From: a virus
DNA: 27,068 nt
Strand: one strand, 5' to 3'
Virus record (IMG/VR): IMGVR_UViG_3300044844_001322
Span: 1 to 27,068 of that record
The stretch's first letter is position 1; each line of letters starts with the position of its first letter. A program made the position numbers and the translations under genes. Of the stretch, positions 506 through 21,937 are shown piece by piece. The notes under the pieces were generated by a model. That model ran no database searches. It saw only the letters and a list, made by a program, of their open reading frames with translations, and was not told the DNA's origin.

Positions 506-522
506 GTTTTTAGGAGGCAAAC

Positions 523-1619: not shown

Positions 1620-1640
1620 GAGCAATTTTAGGAGGCAAGT

Positions 1641-1925
1641 ATGACAATCGCACAGACAATCTTTGAGCAGTTAGGTGGAGGGCGCTTCGTCGTCATGACG
1701 GGTGCCAAAGCATTCGTATCGACGGGCAAGGGCTTGAGGTTCCGGCTCCCGTGCCGCAAGGCAAACGTGGTGGAGATTACCCTTACGCCATCCGACGAGT
1801 ACGATATGCGGTTCTCGCTCGTTCGTGCAGGGAACGTGAAGGTAGTGCAGGAGTACAACGGCGTTTACTTCGACCAGCTGCAATCGCTCTTCACGAGCGT
1901 AACAGGACTTTACACAAAGCTATAG
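1641..1925 (+). CDS. conserved small phage protein (LGGG-F..MTGAK type)
   Basis: 94 aa, start set by TTAGGAGGCAAGTATG. It belongs to a small protein type I recognise from many phages, with an N-terminal LGGGRFVVMTGAK, a central beta-rich KANVVEITLTPSDEYDMRF, and a C-terminal YNGVYFDQLQSLFTSVTGLY. Those conserved blocks make it a firm gene. No biochemical function is known to me. It is followed closely by the next gene (9-nt gap that contains ATAGGAGGCAACT). Confidence 0.85.
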   Translation: MTIAQTIFEQLGGGRFVVMTGAKAFVSTGKGLRFRLPCRKANVVEITLTPSDEYDMRFSLVRAGNVKVVQEYNGVYFDQLQSLFTSVTGLYTKL

Positions 1926-1934
1926 GAGGCAACT

Positions 1935-2480: not shown

Positions 2481-2510
2481 CCTAATGGCTAATATATTTT
2501 GGAGGCAATT

Positions 2511-3936: not shown

Positions 3937-4330
3937 ACCCCTGGCAGAGTTATCCACAGGTTTAAGTAAGCGAAAGCATTCTTCTTTTCTCTAAAATACC
4001 CTTACTTATCCACAGGCTGCCAGAGGTTACTCAAACTAAACTACCTTTTTTTTCTACGATATTGTGGTGACACTTAAAAAAAACATGAGGTGCATAAAAA
4101 AAAAGAGGGCCTTTCCCCCTTTTGGCCAAACCTCTGGCAGAGTTATCCACAGGTAACCCTCTTTCTCGAATGATATGGCACCCTTAGCCCTGTGGATAAC
4201 TCTGCCAGAGGTCTAAAAACCTCTGGCAGACCTCTGGCAGGGCTGGCAGAAAAATGAGCGGGTGTCTAATTATTACGAGCAGTTATGGCGTAAGTGCCTG
4301 TTTTCGACCTCTGGCAGAGTTATCCACAGG
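3937..4330. repeat. DnaA-box repeat family (GGCAGAGTTATCCACAGG)
   Basis: A 24-bp repeat ends in a perfect DnaA box. Copies are at 3937-3960 (one mismatch), 4130-4153 and 4307-4330 (identical), and inverted and identical at 4189-4212. A fifth TTATCCACA without the left half is at 4006-4014. DnaA boxes: 3950-3958, 4006-4014, 4143-4151, 4191-4199 (minus), 4320-4328. Extra CTGGCAGA/TCTGCCAG elements without a DnaA box lie at 3908-3948, 4017-4026 and 4218-4251; 4201-4212 and 4219-4230 form a 12-bp inverted repeat. Confidence 0.9.
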
Positions 4331-4397
4331 CGGCCTTCGGGCCCCTTTCGGGCCCCCCTTGTTGCCCTCGCCGTCCTCTGGTGCTAGGTCCGCTCGT

Positions 4398-4766
4398 ATG
4401 GGGCATACACCCTCCGAACATCTTGAGCAGTCTCGGTTTTTCGCCATCCTTCGACGGCTCAAGCAGCCATGGGCCAAGTATGCCTTCGCCATCCCCAACG
4501 GCTTCCTGGACTCCAAGTCGAAGAGAATCCGAGCCTGGAGGGAGGGAATGCTCTCTGGCACTCCCGACGTCTTCGTCCCTTTGCCTTCTAAGGGCTTCCA
4601 CGGCCTCTTCATTGAGTTTAAAGCGCAAGGGGGCACCCTCTCTATGGCTCAGAAGGAATTTCTCGCCTACGCTCGTTCTACGGGCTATAAAGCCGAAGTG
4701 GTCTTTTCCCTCCGACAGGCCCTCGAGGTGCTCAAAGACTACGCCGAGCCCGGAGGCCCGTCATGA
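4398..4766 (+). CDS. VRR-NUC domain nuclease
   Basis: 122 aa. VRR-NUC proteins are PD-(D/E)XK-type nucleases found in phages and in FAN1, often acting on branched DNA. Visible here: Glu near residue 7-10, PNG at about 34-36, the GTPDVFVPLPS block (catalytic Asp at about 56-58), then GLFIEFKAQGG with the E-x-K pair, and a Gln in SMAQKEF. Length is typical of stand-alone phage VRR-NUC proteins. ATG 4398 is chosen because upstream in-frame codons fall in the DnaA-box repeat; its SD is weak. The TGA stop overlaps the ATG of a mini-gene in a GGAGGCCCGTCATGAG junction. The position beside an origin, primase and helicase fits a replication or junction-processing role. Confidence 0.85.
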   Translation: MGHTPSEHLEQSRFFAILRRLKQPWAKYAFAIPNGFLDSKSKRIRAWREGMLSGTPDVFVPLPSKGFHGLFIEFKAQGGTLSMAQKEFLAYARSTGYKAEVVFSLRQALEVLKDYAEPGGPS

Positions 4767-4819
4767 GCAAAGAGCCCAAAGCGCCCATGGGTCCACGCAC
4801 CCCCGGAGGCCCGTCATGA
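4763..4819 (+). CDS. 18-aa mini-gene 1 from duplicated initiation region
   Basis: ATG 4763 overlaps the VRR-NUC stop and encodes MSKEPKAPMGPRTPGGPS, ending at the TGA that overlaps the next ATG. The SD GGAGG lies 8 nt upstream. Its first residues copy the start of the 4869 gene and its last residues copy the end of the VRR-NUC protein, so it arose by duplication of the junction. Translation is likely given the intact signals; a function for the peptide is not implied. Confidence 0.5.
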   Translation: MSKEPKAPMGPRTPGGPS

Positions 4820-4872
4820 GCAAAGAGCCCAAAGCGCCCATGGGCCCACGCACCCCCGGAGGCCCGTCATGA
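4816..4872 (+). CDS. 18-aa mini-gene 2, same peptide
   Basis: ATG 4816 through TGA 4870-4872 gives the same 18-residue peptide as mini-gene 1; the one base difference is silent (GGT/GGC, Gly). It keeps the same SD, the same ATGA overlap on both sides and the same spacing. A ribosome would terminate and restart twice between VRR-NUC and the gene at 4869, which could tune expression of the downstream genes. Confidence 0.5.
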   Translation: MSKEPKAPMGPRTPGGPS

Positions 4873-5180
4873 GCAAAGAGCCCAAGACGCCCTACATCGA
4901 CTACGATGAGCCCTACGAGCCTCAGCTGCCCGAGAAGCGGCTCTTGGTAGCCGTCATCCAGCGAGCCATCATCGACTACTCTGTGCCCATATACGACCGA
5001 CCGCACCTTCGGTACTGGGCGTCCGCTTGGCTCTTCTCAGACTCTCGAGAGGTCATGAGTCTTTACTGGATATGCGCCCATCTGTCCGAGGACCCAGACT
5101 TCTTTCAGACGGCAATCCGCAAGTCTTTAGAGACCAGAAAGCCTGGTAAAAACAGTGTTATAGTGAGGGTCGATAAGTGA
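4869..5180 (+). CDS. small phage protein with 'AVIQRAI..WLFS..WIC' pattern
   Basis: 103 aa, ATG overlapping the mini-gene 2 stop, SD GGAGG. After an acidic Tyr/Glu/Pro N-terminus (about 1-24) the core reads LLVAVIQRAIIDYSVP, then ASAWLFSDS, then LYWICAHLSEDPDFF, and a basic tail. The gene at 11727 has the same order of elements (AVLQRAVLDLITP, then IEWISGNF, then LSFSRIVEGF), so the two look like distant paralogues. Proteins of this shape are frequent in phage replication/accessory regions; function unknown. GTGA overlap with the next gene. Confidence 0.75.
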   Translation: MSKEPKTPYIDYDEPYEPQLPEKRLLVAVIQRAIIDYSVPIYDRPHLRYWASAWLFSDSREVMSLYWICAHLSEDPDFFQTAIRKSLETRKPGKNSVIVRVDK

Positions 5181-10578: not shown

Positions 10579-11177
10579 GAAAAAGATCCAGCGGTATGAG
10601 CCAAACAGATTGTGGGATACGAGCCCTAAAGATAATTGATATCGTATCTCGCTACGCTCTGCTTCATGCGTACGGAATTGGCTTAGATGTATTTAGGCAG
10701 CTTCCTGACCAGCAGAGAATGAGAGGAATTGAGTATGCGAAGTGGATGTTGGCCTTCGCACTCGATGATGAGATTGACTCAGCCTTCTTGTTCTTTAAAG
10801 CATTGCACTGTGATCGCTTTAAACCAAAGTCGGAAAATTTCGTGTGTAGCGCATACTTGGAATACATGTATGGGTATTGGAGGCAATTATCAGGTACCTG
10901 CGAGAAGACTGTGCCGCTTGGCGCATATATCGTCGCAGGATTACTCAGCGGTCAGCGCATCTTCTTTACTAAGAAAAGTAAGCCAGGGTTCTACATGACG
11001 ATACCTCCAAAGCGCCGAGTCGCTATTGAGTCGTATCTCGAAAGGAATTACGACTTTAAGCGATGGCCAGAAGAGGAATTTAAATTTATGGAAATTGATG
11101 ATCGAGTAGGCGATGTGAAGAATGAGCTTCAAAGCGCCGATGCGGTCGAAATAGTGAAGGAAGAAGAAAATGGGTAG
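10575..11177 (+). CDS. hypothetical protein, 200 aa
   Basis: GTG 10575 overlaps the helicase stop (GTGA); an ATG at 10596 is the alternative start and neither has a strong SD. The protein is helical with many aromatics (YAKWMLAFALDDEIDSAFLFF region) and ends in an acidic Glu-rich tail. I do not recognise a family. Its place between the SNF2-like helicase and the ssDNA-binding protein, with overlaps on both sides, suggests a DNA-metabolism role. Confidence 0.7.
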   Translation: MRKRSSGMSQTDCGIRALKIIDIVSRYALLHAYGIGLDVFRQLPDQQRMRGIEYAKWMLAFALDDEIDSAFLFFKALHCDRFKPKSENFVCSAYLEYMYGYWRQLSGTCEKTVPLGAYIVAGLLSGQRIFFTKKSKPGFYMTIPPKRRVAIESYLERNYDFKRWPEEEFKFMEIDDRVGDVKNELQSADAVEIVKEEENG

Positions 11178-12771: not shown

Positions 12772-13002
12772 ATGAAAAGCGTGTTGGAGGCAATAGACAA
12801 TAGGTTTCCGTGTAGGCCGAACATAAAGTTCATTAAGCCGCATAGAAGGCTATCGATGACAAGCCATGAAGGGACATTAGCTTTCGAAAGCCATATCGAA
12901 GGAATGTACGACTTTATCGAAGTCCCCTACGAGATTGTTAAGCACATTTACGAGCTCGGCTGGACTGATGCAAAGTACGCTGTGAAGGAGGCAATATCAT
13001 GA
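12772..13002 (+). CDS. hypothetical protein, 76 aa
   Basis: Starts at ATG 12772, 2 nt after the previous stop, with SD GGGAGGCATAAGT. Basic N-terminal half and a helical C-terminal half (YEIVKHIYELGWTDAKYA). Its last codons contain AAGGAGGCAATATC, the SD for the next gene, and its stop overlaps that start (ATGA). Not recognised. Confidence 0.65.
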   Translation: MKSVLEAIDNRFPCRPNIKFIKPHRRLSMTSHEGTLAFESHIEGMYDFIEVPYEIVKHIYELGWTDAKYAVKEAIS

Positions 13003-16205: not shown

Positions 16206-16223
16206 TTTTTAGGAGGCTTAAAT

Positions 16224-16301
16224 ATGATGGCGGTTATATTCTCACTATTATCTCTGCTCGTAATCGACGTGCTTTTGGCTATCGCATTCTTTAGGAGGTA
16301 A
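16224..16301 (+). CDS. 25-aa membrane micropeptide that carries the next gene's SD
   Basis: ATG 16224 follows TTTTTTAGGAGGCTTAAAT, a full-strength SD. The peptide is almost all hydrophobic (MAVIFSLLSLLVIDVLLAIAFF region) ending in RR; the last codons TTT AGG AGG TAA are themselves the SD for ATG 16307. A strong SD, a coherent membrane segment and the shared downstream SD make it credible despite its size. It may be a real single-pass micropeptide or mainly a coupling leader. Confidence 0.6.
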   Translation: MMAVIFSLLSLLVIDVLLAIAFFRR

Positions 16302-16306
16302 GGCGT

Positions 16307-17206
16307 ATGGAATTCTACAAATACACAGACTCGTGGAGCTTCCTAAAGCAGTTCAATCTTCAAACACACTTTGAGAGCCGAGAGCAGTGGTGGGAGCTTC
16401 AAGAGTACATATCGGAAATGCACGATTCTCCGTTCATGTACCGCAGGGTGCTGCTGGAGAAGAAGTGGATTGCCAACGAGCGCCCGTACTACCATTGCTA
16501 TCCGGCAATCCTGCCGATGCTGATGAAGCTAAAGCTCGACATTCCCTGCTCATCGTTGAGGGGGGTGGAGGTTGAGCCCATCGAAGTGCGGTTGCCGAAA
16601 GACCAAAAAGACGGCCCGTTTGCCTGGGGGAATCACCATGTTCGCACGGTTTTCTTCGGCATTCAGCCGATGCCAAGGGAAGTTGGAAGCGAAGAGCTCA
16701 TCGACGGCATCTGCATCTGCTTTGATATCGGAGAGGTTTCAGAACTCAACGAACCGATATACTCATTTCGGTTCTTTCCACTCAGAGACGACCTGACAAT
16801 CGACGAGGCGTCCAAGCTATTCACCAAACATCACACAGCGGATGAGGGAATGCAGATACCATCTGAGATTGCCGAGAACATAATTAAATTATGCGCTTGC
16901 CTTGCTCTAATTTCCCAAGATTCTGACATCATCACGCCCGATGTGCTGAAGAGGCATGAGAAGGAGTGGATTGAGGCGAGCGAGGAGCGAAAGGCGCAGA
17001 TGGTAGAAATGGCCAAGAGCCGAGGCAAGAACGGCTGGAACGTAGGCGCAGAGATAGAGTACTCGCCACACTATAGGCGACCCCACCCAGCTCTTGTGCG
17101 AGTCGGAAAAGGGCGTATATCTGCTCGTATAGTCATGCGACGTGGGTCAGTAGTTCATAGGGCTAAGATAGTGAACGTACCGAGCGGATTCGATGGGAAT
17201 AGTTAG
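16307..17206 (+). CDS. conserved hypothetical protein with 'YSPHYRRPH' C-terminal motif
   Basis: 299 aa, SD TTAGGAGGTAAGGCGT. The C-terminal region (about 235-299) has a block I recognise from proteins in phages, plasmids and genomic islands: EIEYSPHYRRPHPALV, then VGKGR, then MRRGSVVHRAKIVNVPSGF. The N-terminal 230 residues are mixed alpha/beta with FFPLRDDLTIDEA. The conserved Tyr/Arg/His and basic block suggests RNA or nucleotide binding, but no function is known to me. It is the main gene of the 16224-17872 unit and overlaps the next gene by 14 nt. Confidence 0.8.
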   Translation: MEFYKYTDSWSFLKQFNLQTHFESREQWWELQEYISEMHDSPFMYRRVLLEKKWIANERPYYHCYPAILPMLMKLKLDIPCSSLRGVEVEPIEVRLPKDQKDGPFAWGNHHVRTVFFGIQPMPREVGSEELIDGICICFDIGEVSELNEPIYSFRFFPLRDDLTIDEASKLFTKHHTADEGMQIPSEIAENIIKLCACLALISQDSDIITPDVLKRHEKEWIEASEERKAQMVEMAKSRGKNGWNVGAEIEYSPHYRRPHPALVRVGKGRISARIVMRRGSVVHRAKIVNVPSGFDGNS

Positions 17207-18715: not shown

Positions 18716-18729
18716 GCTTAGGAGGCAAT

Positions 18730-19234: not shown

Positions 19235-19252
19235 CCATCTTTAGGAGGCTCT

Positions 19253-19474: not shown

Positions 19475-20009
19475 AGCTTTTTTGAAATTTGTTGAACTCT
19501 CTTCGCATTGCATCAACATCACTGCAAGCCTTTGTTGTAAAGCGACAAATCACTTTGCGAATAAAGTCCTCTGCCGTGTGTACGCAGATGAGTGGCATCT
19601 CCCCATAAGCTGGATGAGCTGAGAGAACTTGCCCTCTTCGCTTGGCATATTGAGCCTCAAGCTCTCCTGCAACTGCTTTTAATATTTCAACTTTTTTTGA
19701 CTTTGGTAAACTTTGAATCGCTGATGATATCTCTCGCATCCCATCAGTTATGAACTCTCGTCTTAATGATACGGGGTGATATTCAACAAAAGTATCGTAG
19801 ACTCTAAAATCAAAATAAGTTCTACCAATCTTAATTTGACATGTAGCGCCATTAACCCCTTTCCAATCTGTATATTTTTCAAGGAGCTTTGCACACGCAT
19901 ACTCACTAGCACTTTGAAACTCAATCATCTCGAGAGGCACTGGCGGAAGTGTCGCACGTTCTACGGCTTTTCTTTCTCTCATAGTTTTGGAGATGTCCTC
20001 TTTAGCCAA
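19452..20009 (-). CDS. possible PD-(D/E)XK-like endonuclease, 185 aa
   Basis: The N-terminal half contains SASEYACAKLLEKYTDWKG, then GATCQIKIGRTYFDFRVY with a central FDF, then DTFVEYHPV, a D-x(n)-E-x-H layout like several small phage nucleases where H replaces the usual Lys. The C-terminal half has AVAGELEAQYAKRRGQVLSA and a strand-helix VHTAEDFIRKVICRF. I read this as a nuclease-like fold with low to moderate trust. It is the second gene of a leftward pair, overlapping the first by 31 nt, and has no strong SD (coupled). Confidence 0.6.
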   Translation of the reverse strand: MAKEDISKTMRERKAVERATLPPVPLEMIEFQSASEYACAKLLEKYTDWKGVNGATCQIKIGRTYFDFRVYDTFVEYHPVSLRREFITDGMREISSAIQSLPKSKKVEILKAVAGELEAQYAKRRGQVLSAHPAYGEMPLICVHTAEDFIRKVICRFTTKACSDVDAMRREFNKFQKSFIALRQK

Positions 20010-20221
20010 TCCTCGTGGACCTTATTGACCACCTCAGTAGCAGTGTCAGCATTTGCCGAAATGACGAGACGTTCTTGTTGATCAAACATCTGCATAATCC
20101 AAAGATTCCCCAGGAAATCTAAGGAAACTGCGAGGCTATATTCTTTGGCAATGCTAATGACAGTTGAGAGTTTGTCGAGAGCTGCAATATCGAGAATCCT
20201 ATTAGACACCTTGATCTCCAT
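19979..20221 (-). CDS. hypothetical protein, 80 aa
   Basis: ATG 20221 on the minus strand, with no visible SD. Alternating strand-helix content (LDIAALDKLSTVISIAKEYS, then AVSLDFLGNLWIMQMF). It overlaps and precedes the nuclease-like gene, so the two are a leftward unit starting beside the predicted small RNA on the opposite strand. Not recognised. Confidence 0.6.
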   Translation of the reverse strand: MEIKVSNRILDIAALDKLSTVISIAKEYSLAVSLDFLGNLWIMQMFDQQERLVISANADTATEVVNKVHEDWLKRTSPKL

Positions 20222-20243
20222 GTGTCATCATATAAGGTATAGA

Positions 20244-20249
20244 TATAAT
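20244..20249 (+). promoter_or_regulatory. perfect -10 box TATAAT of the small RNA
   Basis: TATAAT at 20244-20249 is a consensus -10. The -35 position (about 20221-20227, TGTGTC/GTGTCA) is poor. Transcription would start near 20256. A 10-bp inverted repeat (20249-20258/20283-20292) starts in the -10, so it could also be an operator. Confidence 0.5.
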
Positions 20250-20378
20250 ATCTCACAAGTAGACCATGGGCCGTCAGCCTGATTGTGAGATAGGGAACAG
20301 ATTTCTTATGGATTGCCTCCTAAGAAAACGTGGTTTTGCCCAGCTTTCCACAACACGAAAAAAGCTGGGCACTTTTTT
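20250..20378 (+). ncRNA. predicted small RNA with anti-Shine-Dalgarno loop
   Basis: About 125 nt without a coding frame, bounded by TATAAT and an intrinsic terminator. Three hairpins are seen: 5' arm TATCTCACAA (20249-20258) with TTGTGAGATA (20283-20292), only partly transcribed if +1 is near 20256; a middle stem TTTCTTA (20302-20308)/TAAGAAA (20321-20327) whose 12-nt loop is TGGATTGCCTCC; and the terminator. ATTGCCTCCTAAG (20312-20324) is complementary to CTTAGGAGGCAAT upstream of 18730 over 13 nt and to the AGGAGGCAA-type SDs of several other genes over 9-11 nt. It also matches the 16S rRNA 3' end in 11 of 14 positions. A trans-acting translational regulator is the leading reading; an attenuator leader for 20381 or a decayed minus-strand initiation site are alternatives. 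Confidence 0.55.
20338..20378 (+). terminator. strong intrinsic terminator
   Basis: GCCCAGCTTT (20338-20347) pairs perfectly with AAAGCTGGGC (20361-20370) around a 13-nt loop, followed by AC and six T (20373-20378). It is oriented rightward only; on the other strand no T-run follows. Confidence 0.92.
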
Positions 20379-20380
20379 AT

Positions 20381-20617
20381 ATGAAGCGCCAAAAACCTAT
20401 CGCTGCCACGCACTACTTCAACCGAGCACGATGGGATATCATCAATGAGCTCACTGCAGATAACTGGGGCTGGGAGTTTGTCATTGGGGTAAAGCACATT
20501 GGCTCTTCTGACTTTAAGAACGAATTTCCAGAATTTGAAATAATAGCTGAGTATCGGCCTTCAGCTCGTGATAGAAAGAGCCGATATGCAGTCTACGGAC
20601 GGCAGTTACTTTTTTAA
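20381..20617 (+). CDS. hypothetical protein, 78 aa, no SD
   Basis: ATG 20381 is just 2 nt after the terminator's T-run and has no purine-rich SD. The protein is basic and aromatic (HYFNRARWDIINELTADNWG, then FVIGVKHIG, then EFEIIAEYRPSARDR). I do not recognise it. Expression would need terminator read-through and an unusual initiation, or the true start is different. It is followed by TCAGGAGGCAAT of the next gene. Confidence 0.55.
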   Translation: MKRQKPIAATHYFNRARWDIINELTADNWGWEFVIGVKHIGSSDFKNEFPEFEIIAEYRPSARDRKSRYAVYGRQLLF

Positions 20618-20638
20618 TCGTGTAAATCAGGAGGCAAT

Positions 20639-20887
20639 ATGAATAATGCAAAAGCAAATGTGATCATCGCTATGAAGATGTGCGGCATGGAAGCAATCAG
20701 CGAAGGCGGTATGTACCATGCCCTTTTCTCGCAAGGACTAGGAACAGACGAGGCAACAATGGTGGTCAAGGAGCTCTTAGAAGAGGGCAGGGTCACTCGT
20801 TCTGGTTGTGCCTTTATTCTAAATCGCTATGTTCGCCCTCATGGCGAAGAAAATCCCGCTCGGGCATGGGCAGTTTGCAATAGTTGA
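20639..20887 (+). CDS. small winged-helix-like protein, 82 aa
   Basis: ATG 20639 after ATCAGGAGGCAAT. Residues about 22-65 (GGMYHALFSQGLGTDEATMV, then VKELLEEGRVTRSGCAFIL) resemble the last two helices and wing of a winged-helix domain: helix, turn, recognition helix, then a beta hairpin. A DNA-binding role is possible. Its end overlaps the HNH endonuclease gene, which starts within it in another frame. Confidence 0.6.
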   Translation: MNNAKANVIIAMKMCGMEAISEGGMYHALFSQGLGTDEATMVVKELLEEGRVTRSGCAFILNRYVRPHGEENPARAWAVCNS

Positions 20888-21305
20888 TGATGAGGACTTT
20901 GAGTTCATCTCGAAGTACAAGTGGCATATCCTCCCATGTCCAAATAGAGAGGGAGGATATGCTGTCACAAAGATACGAATGCATCGTCTTATAATAGACG
21001 CACCTAAAGATATGTTCGTCGACCATATCAACGGAGACCCGCTCGACAATAGGCAATGCAATCTAAGGCTCTGCACAAACGCTCAGAATCAGCAGAATAC
21101 TGGTAGCCGTGGAGGTTCTTCACGTCATAAGGGCGTAAGTTTCATTAAGAAATCAGGGAAATGGAAGGCTTCATTTTTATTTGAAGGACGACACTATTAC
21201 TGTGGCCTGTGGGATAACGAGGATGATGCTGCTCGTGCAGTAGATAAAAAAAGAGGCGAAGTATGTGGAACCTTCGCCTCAAAAAACCTATACGATGAAG
21301 ATTAG
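20841..21305 (+). CDS. HNH homing-type endonuclease with AP2-like domain
   Basis: 154 aa from ATG 20841, where the product opens MAKKIPLGHGQFAIVDDEDF, the usual start of this type; ATG 20829 adds four residues. HNH part: RMHRLI, then VDHINGDPLDNRQCNLRLCT (the H-N-...-N core), then AQNQQNT. Residues 110-150 are a DNA-binding AP2/ERF-like region: SSRHKGVSFIKKSGKWKASF, then YCGLWDNEDDAARA. Such free-standing genes cut unoccupied alleles and are mobile. No SD. It is convergent with the late genes, overlapping tail to tail by 4 nt. Confidence 0.9.
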   Translation: MAKKIPLGHGQFAIVDDEDFEFISKYKWHILPCPNREGGYAVTKIRMHRLIIDAPKDMFVDHINGDPLDNRQCNLRLCTNAQNQQNTGSRGGSSRHKGVSFIKKSGKWKASFLFEGRHYYCGLWDNEDDAARAVDKKRGEVCGTFASKNLYDED

Positions 21306-21937
21306 CCGTTTGTTCTCTGATAGAGAATAGCTGCTAATCGAACCATCGCATCTTTTGCGTAGGTTTCTGCAGCTGGCCCTTGGCCATTGTACTGACGGAA
21401 TATCTCTCTGAGACGGTGTTCTGTGGCTTTAGCCTTAACTGTCTCGTCGATCCTACGAACAATCCGTGCGGCGCACATAGCGCTCTTCTCAGTGTCGTAC
21501 AGCTTAGAGAAATGAAGCCCACACTCTCGCTCAGCCGTAAGGCCAAGGATGTGAAAGACCCCGTGCGAGCTGGCAAGCATTCGCACCTCGCTATCGCTTA
21601 GCTCTCGATAGTTCCTATCGCCACGCAGCCGAGAAAAGAGATGTGGCTCAAAGCGATAAAGAGCCCTCTGATTCCCTCCAGAGCTCTCTTTATCAGAGAT
21701 AACGTGAAGAATAAGAGGGTCTACTCCGTTTGTCTTGGAGGCCTTTACTATCGACTCTTCAAGGTTCAATGAACGCTGTGCGACTTCTTTCTTCGGAAGC
21801 ACGTCAACGATCTTCTCTTTTGCCTGCAGTGCTTTTGCGACAGTAAAGTTGAGCGCAATCTTTAGGCCTGTAGTGACCAACACGCAGATGGCCATGCCAA
21901 CAACAACTTTACCCAGGAACGTAGTTATCTTTCTCAT
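21302..21937 (-). CDS. membrane-anchored muramidase/transglycosylase-like endolysin
   Basis: 211 aa from ATG 21937, fixed by TATGGAGGTATC; upstream in-frame codons are not needed. Residues about 5-27 (TTFLGKVVVGMAICVLVTTG region) are a signal-anchor. The catalytic part reads ILHVISDKESSGG (candidate catalytic Glu), RFEPHLFSRLRG, SSHGVFHILGL (as in lysozyme-like transglycosylases), then a helical end with RQYNGQG. This resembles peptidoglycan-cleaving enzymes. Last gene of the lysis cluster. A signal-anchor start recalls SAR endolysins, exported without needing a holin pore. Function in wall lysis likely; exact family unsure. Confidence 0.7.
   Translation of the reverse strand: MRKITTFLGKVVVGMAICVLVTTGLKIALNFTVAKALQAKEKIVDVLPKKEVAQRSLNLEESIVKASKTNGVDPLILHVISDKESSGGNQRALYRFEPHLFSRLRGDRNYRELSDSEVRMLASSHGVFHILGLTAERECGLHFSKLYDTEKSAMCAARIVRRIDETVKAKATEHRLREIFRQYNGQGPAAETYAKDAMVRLAAILYQRTNG

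Follow-up and report, generated by a model that had tools for sequence, protein, structure and literature searches.

A short intergenic element in a viral genome was found to carry a hairpin whose loop is complementary to a particular form of the Shine-Dalgarno (SD) sequence, TTAGGAGGCA, present before genes of the same genome. The DNA analysed, referred to as the window, was a 27,068-base IMG/VR virus record. The element spans about 129 nucleotides (20250-20378) between a minus-strand gene of 80 amino acids and a plus-strand gene of 78 amino acids. The sequence of the element was conserved in related records, the base pairs of its first and third hairpins covaried, and the bases on either side of its CCUCC core matched the SD flanks of the phage. 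We regard it as about an even chance, judging from sequence, that the element is a phage small RNA or leader RNA that blocks the translation of non-structural genes by pairing with the phage-type SD.

The proteins encoded by the window included a D5-type primase, a SNF2 helicase, a DUF2800 exonuclease and an HNH nuclease. A 51.7 kb relative (G005) overlapped the window with 23 mismatches over 23,370 aligned bases and encoded a terminase, a phrog_145-family portal and a tail protein, and the window phage was therefore taken to be a tailed phage. The element was present once each in five further IMG/VR records, at 87–100% identity to the window copy. Together with the window the six records gave four distinct element sequences, the three others being 87–93% identical to that of the window; G005 and the window are nearly one phage, so that counts over records are not fully separate. 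Scans of viral contigs, six with protein queries and two with DNA patterns, gave no relatives beyond these five records, two of the protein scans recovering three and four of them; an exact match to 23 bases of the second hairpin was absent from the genome contigs searched, and DNA searches of phage records returned no near match and a single chance-like match of 27 nt. Among the phage-protein matches listed the best were 23–32% identical, with mixed hosts, and a scan of genomes with the primase gave one fragment of a Treponema MAG at 24% identity. A scan for second copies of the element, run on the window, its five relatives, six control stretches and the Treponema fragment, found none; its sole extra match was the reverse strand of these hairpins, which are self-symmetric.

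The element and its surroundings are composed of the following features:

19979-20221, minus strand: divergent conserved ORF of 80 amino acids, with a GTG (first base 20209) as a possible true start
20222-20249, plus strand: promoter-like stretch, with the invariant block GTGTCATCATATAAGGTATA at 20222-20241 followed by TATAAT at 20244-20249
20250-20378, plus strand: element of about 129 nt, three hairpins and then a terminator
20250-20291, plus strand: hairpin H1, 9-bp stem of 20250-20258 with 20283-20291
20268-20271 with 20277-20280, plus strand: inner mini-hairpin of H1, enclosing the invariant GGCCGTCAGCC
20302-20327, plus strand: hairpin H2, 7-bp stem TTTCTTA/TAAGAAA around TGGATTGCCTCC
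20312-20324, plus strand: antisense segment AUUGCCUCCUAAG, complement of CTTAGGAGGCAAT, with the putative seed UUGCC at 20313-20317
20338-20378, plus strand: H3 and T run, an intrinsic terminator, 20338-20347 paired with 20361-20370 and T run at 20373-20378
20381-20617, plus strand: conserved ORF of 78 amino acids, a candidate cis-regulated gene

The three hairpins and terminator described in the earlier note were recovered by folding, which gave a minimum free energy of -39.1 kcal/mol and a z score of -2.36, at least equalled by 4 of 200 shuffles. H2 has the 7-bp stem described there. Its loop had been given as 12 nt; in the predicted fold GGA:UCC pairs close it further, leaving UUGCC (20313-20317) exposed and hiding much of CCUCC. 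The statement that the interval holds no coding frame had to be qualified, as a 60-aa ORF (20266-20448) spans the element. The frame of this ORF is not conserved, and its ATG is missing in relatives L002-L005. Searches against 4227 Rfam models gave no match in the window or in relatives L002, L003 and L005 at the gathering score, nor in 20150-20660 at E values up to 1, and by these searches the element was unlike a member of a known RNA family. The c4 RNA of phages, by comparison, has an Rfam model. No tRNA or tmRNA was found.

The four distinct sequences paired in 97.5% of cells, with five of the 30 pairs changed on both sides, and none of 500 shuffles reached either the paired-cell value or the value for two-sided changes. 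H1 contained one compensatory change from C-G to U-A and one A-U/G-U pair, while four pairs of H3 were altered on both sides and two showed a one-sided change to G-U. All three one-sided changes in H1 and H3 were thus to G-U on the plus strand; the innermost listed pair of H3 is C-A in three of the four sequences, and a strand can therefore not be argued from the wobble changes. None of the H2 pairs varied, so that covariation is silent for or against the H2 stem. Pairwise identity was 98% in H2, 95% in the promoter-like block, 94% in the H1 arms and 79% in H3, compared with 67% in the spacer before H2 and 68% at the third codon positions of gene 20381. It seems from this pattern that sequence is what is maintained in H2, and structure in H3. 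Invariance by itself is weak evidence, because only four sequences are available and other parts of the region also have long stretches without change: the promoter-like block and H1 have runs of 21 and 20 bases, and coding gene 20381 has one of 26. The earlier note had stated that relatives lacking the hairpin, or changing the loop independently of their SDs, would refute its proposal; in all five relatives both hairpin and loop were kept. The SD extension does vary in the relatives, from CAAT to CACT, CAGT and CTCT, while the loop stays constant, and since the loop never changes no co-variation between loop and SDs is visible. The full 13-nt match described below is special to the window lineage.

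Conservation of H2 could also arise if the hairpin were the relic of a minus-strand start site, a working site of that kind, or the carrier of a short leader peptide. The minus strand reads CTTAGGAGGCAAT at H2, and a plus-strand ATG at 20308-20310 is present in 6/6 records. By eye there is no ATG, GTG or TTG at a normal distance after the minus-strand SD, and in L003 the minus-strand frame that overlaps it is interrupted; a relic, moreover, should not remain invariant. The plus-strand leader peptide frame lacks a conserved SD and diverges after six codons, so is not conserved, and this group of explanations was judged very improbable. A coding reading through the frame of the H2 ATG was rejected, as that frame stops early in L003/L004 and L005.

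The complementarity of H2 to start sites was found as the earlier note had claimed. All 13 nt of ATTGCCTCCTAAG (20312-20324) are exactly complementary to 18717-18729, and the shorter matches of 11, 10 and 9 nt were found before all eight starts that had been listed. The candidate targets are:

510-520, plus strand: SD of gene 523, 11-nt complement
1628-1638, plus strand: SD of gene 1641, 11-nt complement
1923-1932, plus strand: SD of gene 1935, 10-nt complement
2501-2509, plus strand: SD of gene 2511 (DUF932 family), 9-nt complement
12986-12995, plus strand: SD of gene 12999 (DUF551-like), 10-nt complement
16209-16217, plus strand: SD of 16224 (25-aa hydrophobic peptide), 9-nt complement
18717-18729, plus strand: SD of gene 18730, 13-nt complement
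19241-19249, plus strand: SD of gene 19253, 9-nt complement
20629-20638, plus strand: SD of gene 20639 (the second gene after the element), 10-nt complement

Searches with the putative targets assigned no function beyond DUF932 (2511) and DUF551-like (12999). The start at 16224 is believable as that of a 25-aa hydrophobic peptide (16224-16301, plus strand), possibly a small membrane or lysis protein, and TTAGGAGGC also precedes ATGs in similar positions at 16470 in G001 and 8793 in G003. When the 13-mer was searched with up to two mismatches, 8 matches were obtained in the window compared with 0.74 expected, a number reached by none of 100 shuffles. One was the element itself, five were antisense to start sites, and two (4580 and 5320, plus strand) were neither. 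Counted over both strands of the six records, TTAGGAGGC occurred 26 times, 20 of them just before an ATG (16 distinct contexts) and the remaining 6 as the antisense of H2. The 9-nt GGAGGCAAT is also found away from starts, inside genes, at 10879 and 12786. By these counts and the flank ranks given below, the putative seed is complementary to translation initiation regions beyond chance.

The fit of the bases flanking the core was measured by fixing CCUCC and scoring all 256 possible four-base flanks on each side against 36 gene clusters with a GGAGG start. Gene calls were home-made, with starts chosen by the SD core and without use of the flanks, and orthogroups had to be represented in at least two distinct genomes. 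Scored by Watson-Crick extension, the flanks of the element itself, AUUG (5') and UAAG (3'), ranked 1 and 2 of 256, compared with ranks of 169 and 19 for the 16S-like flanks AUCA and UUAA. Among the 36 clusters 4 are likely shadow ORFs, and three genes are each divided between two clusters; dropping the former and merging the latter left 29 clusters, over which the ranks were again 1 and 2, as they were over the 20 starts of the window alone. Duplex prediction against the phage start regions, proposed in the earlier note, was carried out with wobble pairs over 19 orthogroups and placed the real flanks at ranks 4 and 13 of 256, with AUCA at 159 and UUAA at 73. The element had been described as a phage-encoded anti-SD mimic; the part of this claim that the loop fits the phage form of the SD and not the host 16S form held, while repression in trans would follow from pairing that we infer. 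The interpretation in the earlier note is partly supported, and the case for specificity is stronger than that note could make it.

The SDs themselves were unusual in the base that follows GGAGG. At ATG starts in the window this base was C in 14 of 21 cases; the proportion was 20 of 61 at GGAGG sites away from starts (p 0.010) and 9 of 45 at the starts of control phages (p 0.0006), in Fisher tests that assume independent sites and with one start (17839) counted twice among the 21, the recount using 20. CAA followed GGAGG at 7/21 window starts, 3/61 non-start sites and 0/45 control-phage starts; the control consisted of six phages, T4 and D29 in part, and is narrow because T7 contributes 26 of the 45 sites and two of the six phages give no GGAGG start. 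The base after GGAGG was also the best-kept flank position, being identical in 38 of 47 ortholog pairs, a figure that ranged from 24 to 33 across the ten remaining positions. Among 5-mers upstream of starts, enrichment was 13.2-fold for TAGGA, 8.1-fold for AGGCA, 7.3-fold for GAGGC and 3.5-fold for GGCAA, and weaker for AGGTG (1.9-fold) and GGTGA (1.5-fold). The canonical 5-mers AAGGA (7.4-fold) and GAGGT (6.0-fold) were enriched as well. Canonical 16S would favour T after GGAGG, because most of the tabulated antiSD groups have A before CCUCC, and C in this position seems to be favoured by something besides ordinary 16S pairing.

One explanation for such a preference would be a host whose own 16S rRNA has the loop-like ending AUUGCCUCCUAA, in which case the phage SDs would be host-optimal and the element would mimic the rRNA tail. 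This would account both for GGAGGCAA at starts and for the resemblance of the element to 16S rRNA. The E. coli tail is given as GAUCACCUCCUUA (PMC6107228), and the match of 11 in 14 positions claimed for it was correct by inspection. Tail and element have in common the order UGGAU-NN-CCUCCU, as the tail is described in PMC6107228 and PMC10783764; the difference is that the element has UG for CA and UAA for UUA, in each case towards the phage SDs. The GAUCACCUCC of the 16S tail is not copied in the element, which has GAUUGCCUCC in 6/6 records. Of the 15 antiSD groups as set out in PMC10783764, 11 show A before CCUCC and the remaining four give no base there, and GCCUCC is absent from the main text of PMC10783764 and PMC6107228.

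The distribution of C between gene classes bears on the same explanation. With 'structural' assigned from gene content and strand, C was the majority base in 0 of 6 clusters belonging to the structural block, compared with 20 of 30 elsewhere (p 0.004). Once split genes were merged and likely shadow ORFs removed, the figures were 0 of 6 and 18 of 23 (p 0.001). This split weakens the explanation by a host 16S with a GCCUCC end, which we consider extremely unlikely. The mean duplex advantage over the 16S tail was -3.9 kcal/mol outside the block compared with -0.1 kcal/mol inside it (p 0.016), as calculated with an 18-nt loop query and a 14-nt tail. Exceptions were seen in both classes: the non-structural genes 13310, 13648 and 16307 have GGAGG without C, and a 211-aa gene of the structural block has GGAGGC in G002 and G003 and GGAGGT in the other records.

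In the mechanism that we infer, the element would be transcribed into a phage RNA of about 120–130 nt that ends at the terminator, and H2 would act in trans as an antisense hairpin directed at the SD family of the phage itself. The exposed UUGCC of H2 would serve as the seed by pairing with GGCAA, which stands in the phage SD where the canonical form has GGUGA, and pairing would next invade the H2 stem via CCUAAG to give a duplex of 9–13 bp. Computed energies were -20.4 kcal/mol for the perfect 13-pair target, -10.2 kcal/mol for the 16S tail at the same site and -6.7 kcal/mol for the H2 fold alone. Pairing with a target RNA would cover UUGCCUCC, and the paired start site would be closed to the 30S subunit, blocking the start. 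The targets would be the non-structural genes listed above (523 to 20639). Structural genes would be spared because their GGAGG sites mostly lack the following C, and such sparing would suit a shift towards the structural genes. A broader proposal, tentative and somewhat short of an even chance, is that a private SD form, TTAGGAGGCA, marks the non-structural genes, a form that host ribosomes could read and that one phage RNA could address as a class.

The region upstream of H1 contains the TATAAT reported in the earlier note, which is present in the window and replaced by TACACT, TATAGT or TACATT in relatives, with TANANT kept throughout. Used as a -10 element it would give a start near 20255-20257, within the 5' arm of H1, so that the only promoter candidate is at odds with an intact H1. 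The true promoter would then be located further upstream, or H1 would be in part a DNA dyad. A promoter scan found sites no commoner than in shuffles (17 compared with 21.0). The invariant block GTGTCATCATATAAGGTATA has no second copy in the window at up to 6 mismatches, and it overlaps the expected promoter position of the minus-strand gene. The ATG of that gene is ACG in L005/L011, and the GTG at 20209 stands behind a conserved GGAG.

Another explanation is that H2 is kept for a different reason, for example as a protein-binding hairpin or as a DNA element close to a promoter for divergent transcription. Its likeness to SDs would then be coincidental. All support for pairing is by sequence, H1 is likewise a 9-bp dyad adjoining the likely transcription start, a 20-nt invariant block of no assigned role lies upstream, and the evidence for a strand is mixed, with the three plus-strand G-U changes set against the C-A pair innermost in H3. 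Coincidence would have to extend to flanks that rank 1 and 2 of 256 on both sides of the core, and we consider it rather improbable.

In a further explanation the element is the cis-acting 5' leader of a 20381-20639-20829 operon, with H3 ending most transcripts and readthrough giving the operon mRNA. H2 would then sense a protein, or pair with the SD of 20639, itself part of this operon, much as c4 of P1 acts on ant. The terminator stands upstream of the co-directional gene 20381, as it would in an attenuator leader. The ATG of this gene follows the T run almost directly and without an SD in 6/6 records, so that the gene seems to need readthrough; Pfam and PHROGs gave no family for its product. 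Complementarity of about 10 nt is retained at the SD of 20639 in 6/6 records (by eye), and the c4 RNA, whose loops are described as blocking a ribosome-binding site, is a phage precedent (PMC12197685). Against this, a conserved strong antiterminator was not seen by eye in the six-record alignment: UGGGC, which could pair with GCCCA, is found only in the window lineage, and a weak GUGG/CCAC pairing is kept. A cis leader also leaves the fit of H2 to SDs across the genome unexplained. We consider this explanation unlikely, though less so than the other alternatives, and a cis leader role could coexist with a genome-wide SD role. In the same region (20331-20357), the GTGG before H3 and the CCAC..ACACG in the terminator loop are kept while the intervening stem diverges, and may represent a weak alternative pairing or a binding site.

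Pairing of C-rich single-stranded motifs with SD regions is known in Gram-positive bacteria for the CiaR-dependent csRNAs and the LhrC family. These belong to chromosomal regulons, and we know of no case in which they fit a distinct SD form of one replicon. Two RNAs are more closely comparable with the proposed SD-pairing RNA. In phages P1 and P7, translation of ant is blocked by c4 RNA, which pairs around the ribosome-binding site of the mRNA through letters that probably lie in loops (PMC12197685). Like c4, the element would be a phage RNA with a loop complementary to a phage ribosome-binding region, fitting several SDs including that of 20639; the difference is that c4 is described there with one target, ant, whereas the complement in the element fits an SD family (PMC12197685). 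NfeR1 (alpha-r14, 'cuckoo') of alpha-proteobacteria is described as having CCUCCUCCC unpaired in three hairpins and as silencing several targets at translation initiation regions in reporter assays (PMC10746234). The likeness lies in a short RNA with three hairpins and an antiSD motif (PMC10746234). NfeR1 as described there has the motif in all three hairpins and acts on host mRNAs, whereas GCCUCC is present in only one hairpin of the element, with flanks fitted to the phage SDs. The element was not filed as a member of NfeR1 or c4 because it has one motif, other letters and no Rfam match, although by analogy it may work like both. What distinguishes the element from these RNAs, as read from the sequence, is that both flanks fit an SD form common to many genes of the same genome. 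OOP, VpdS, 24B_1, PreS and aQ are phage-encoded RNAs that tune phage or host genes, and differ in being described as single-gene antisense or Hfq-linked rather than SD-wide (PMC12197685). No class-wide SD-targeting RNA of phages was found among the literature matches listed.

If the proposed mechanism is true, one RNA would shut off a whole gene class while largely sparing structural genes and host mRNAs, and a virus would regulate a gene class by a shared altered ribosome-binding sequence together with one RNA that reads the alteration. The choice of SD flanks in phages would then be tied to regulation, and a simple two-sided genetic test would be available.

Three further features of the window were observed. 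The minus-strand ORF at 21305-21937 encodes a 211-aa protein that has an N-terminal stretch like a membrane anchor and no Pfam match, and looks lysozyme/transglycosylase-like by eye. A 53-base repeat at 4749-4892 (2.7 copies, 96%) has GGAGG and ATG in each copy and bridges ORFs 4254-4766 and 4869-5180, covering the end of the first and the start of the second. At the contig end (1-163) there is a perfect 36-base tandem repeat of 4.5 copies, which may be an assembly end effect.
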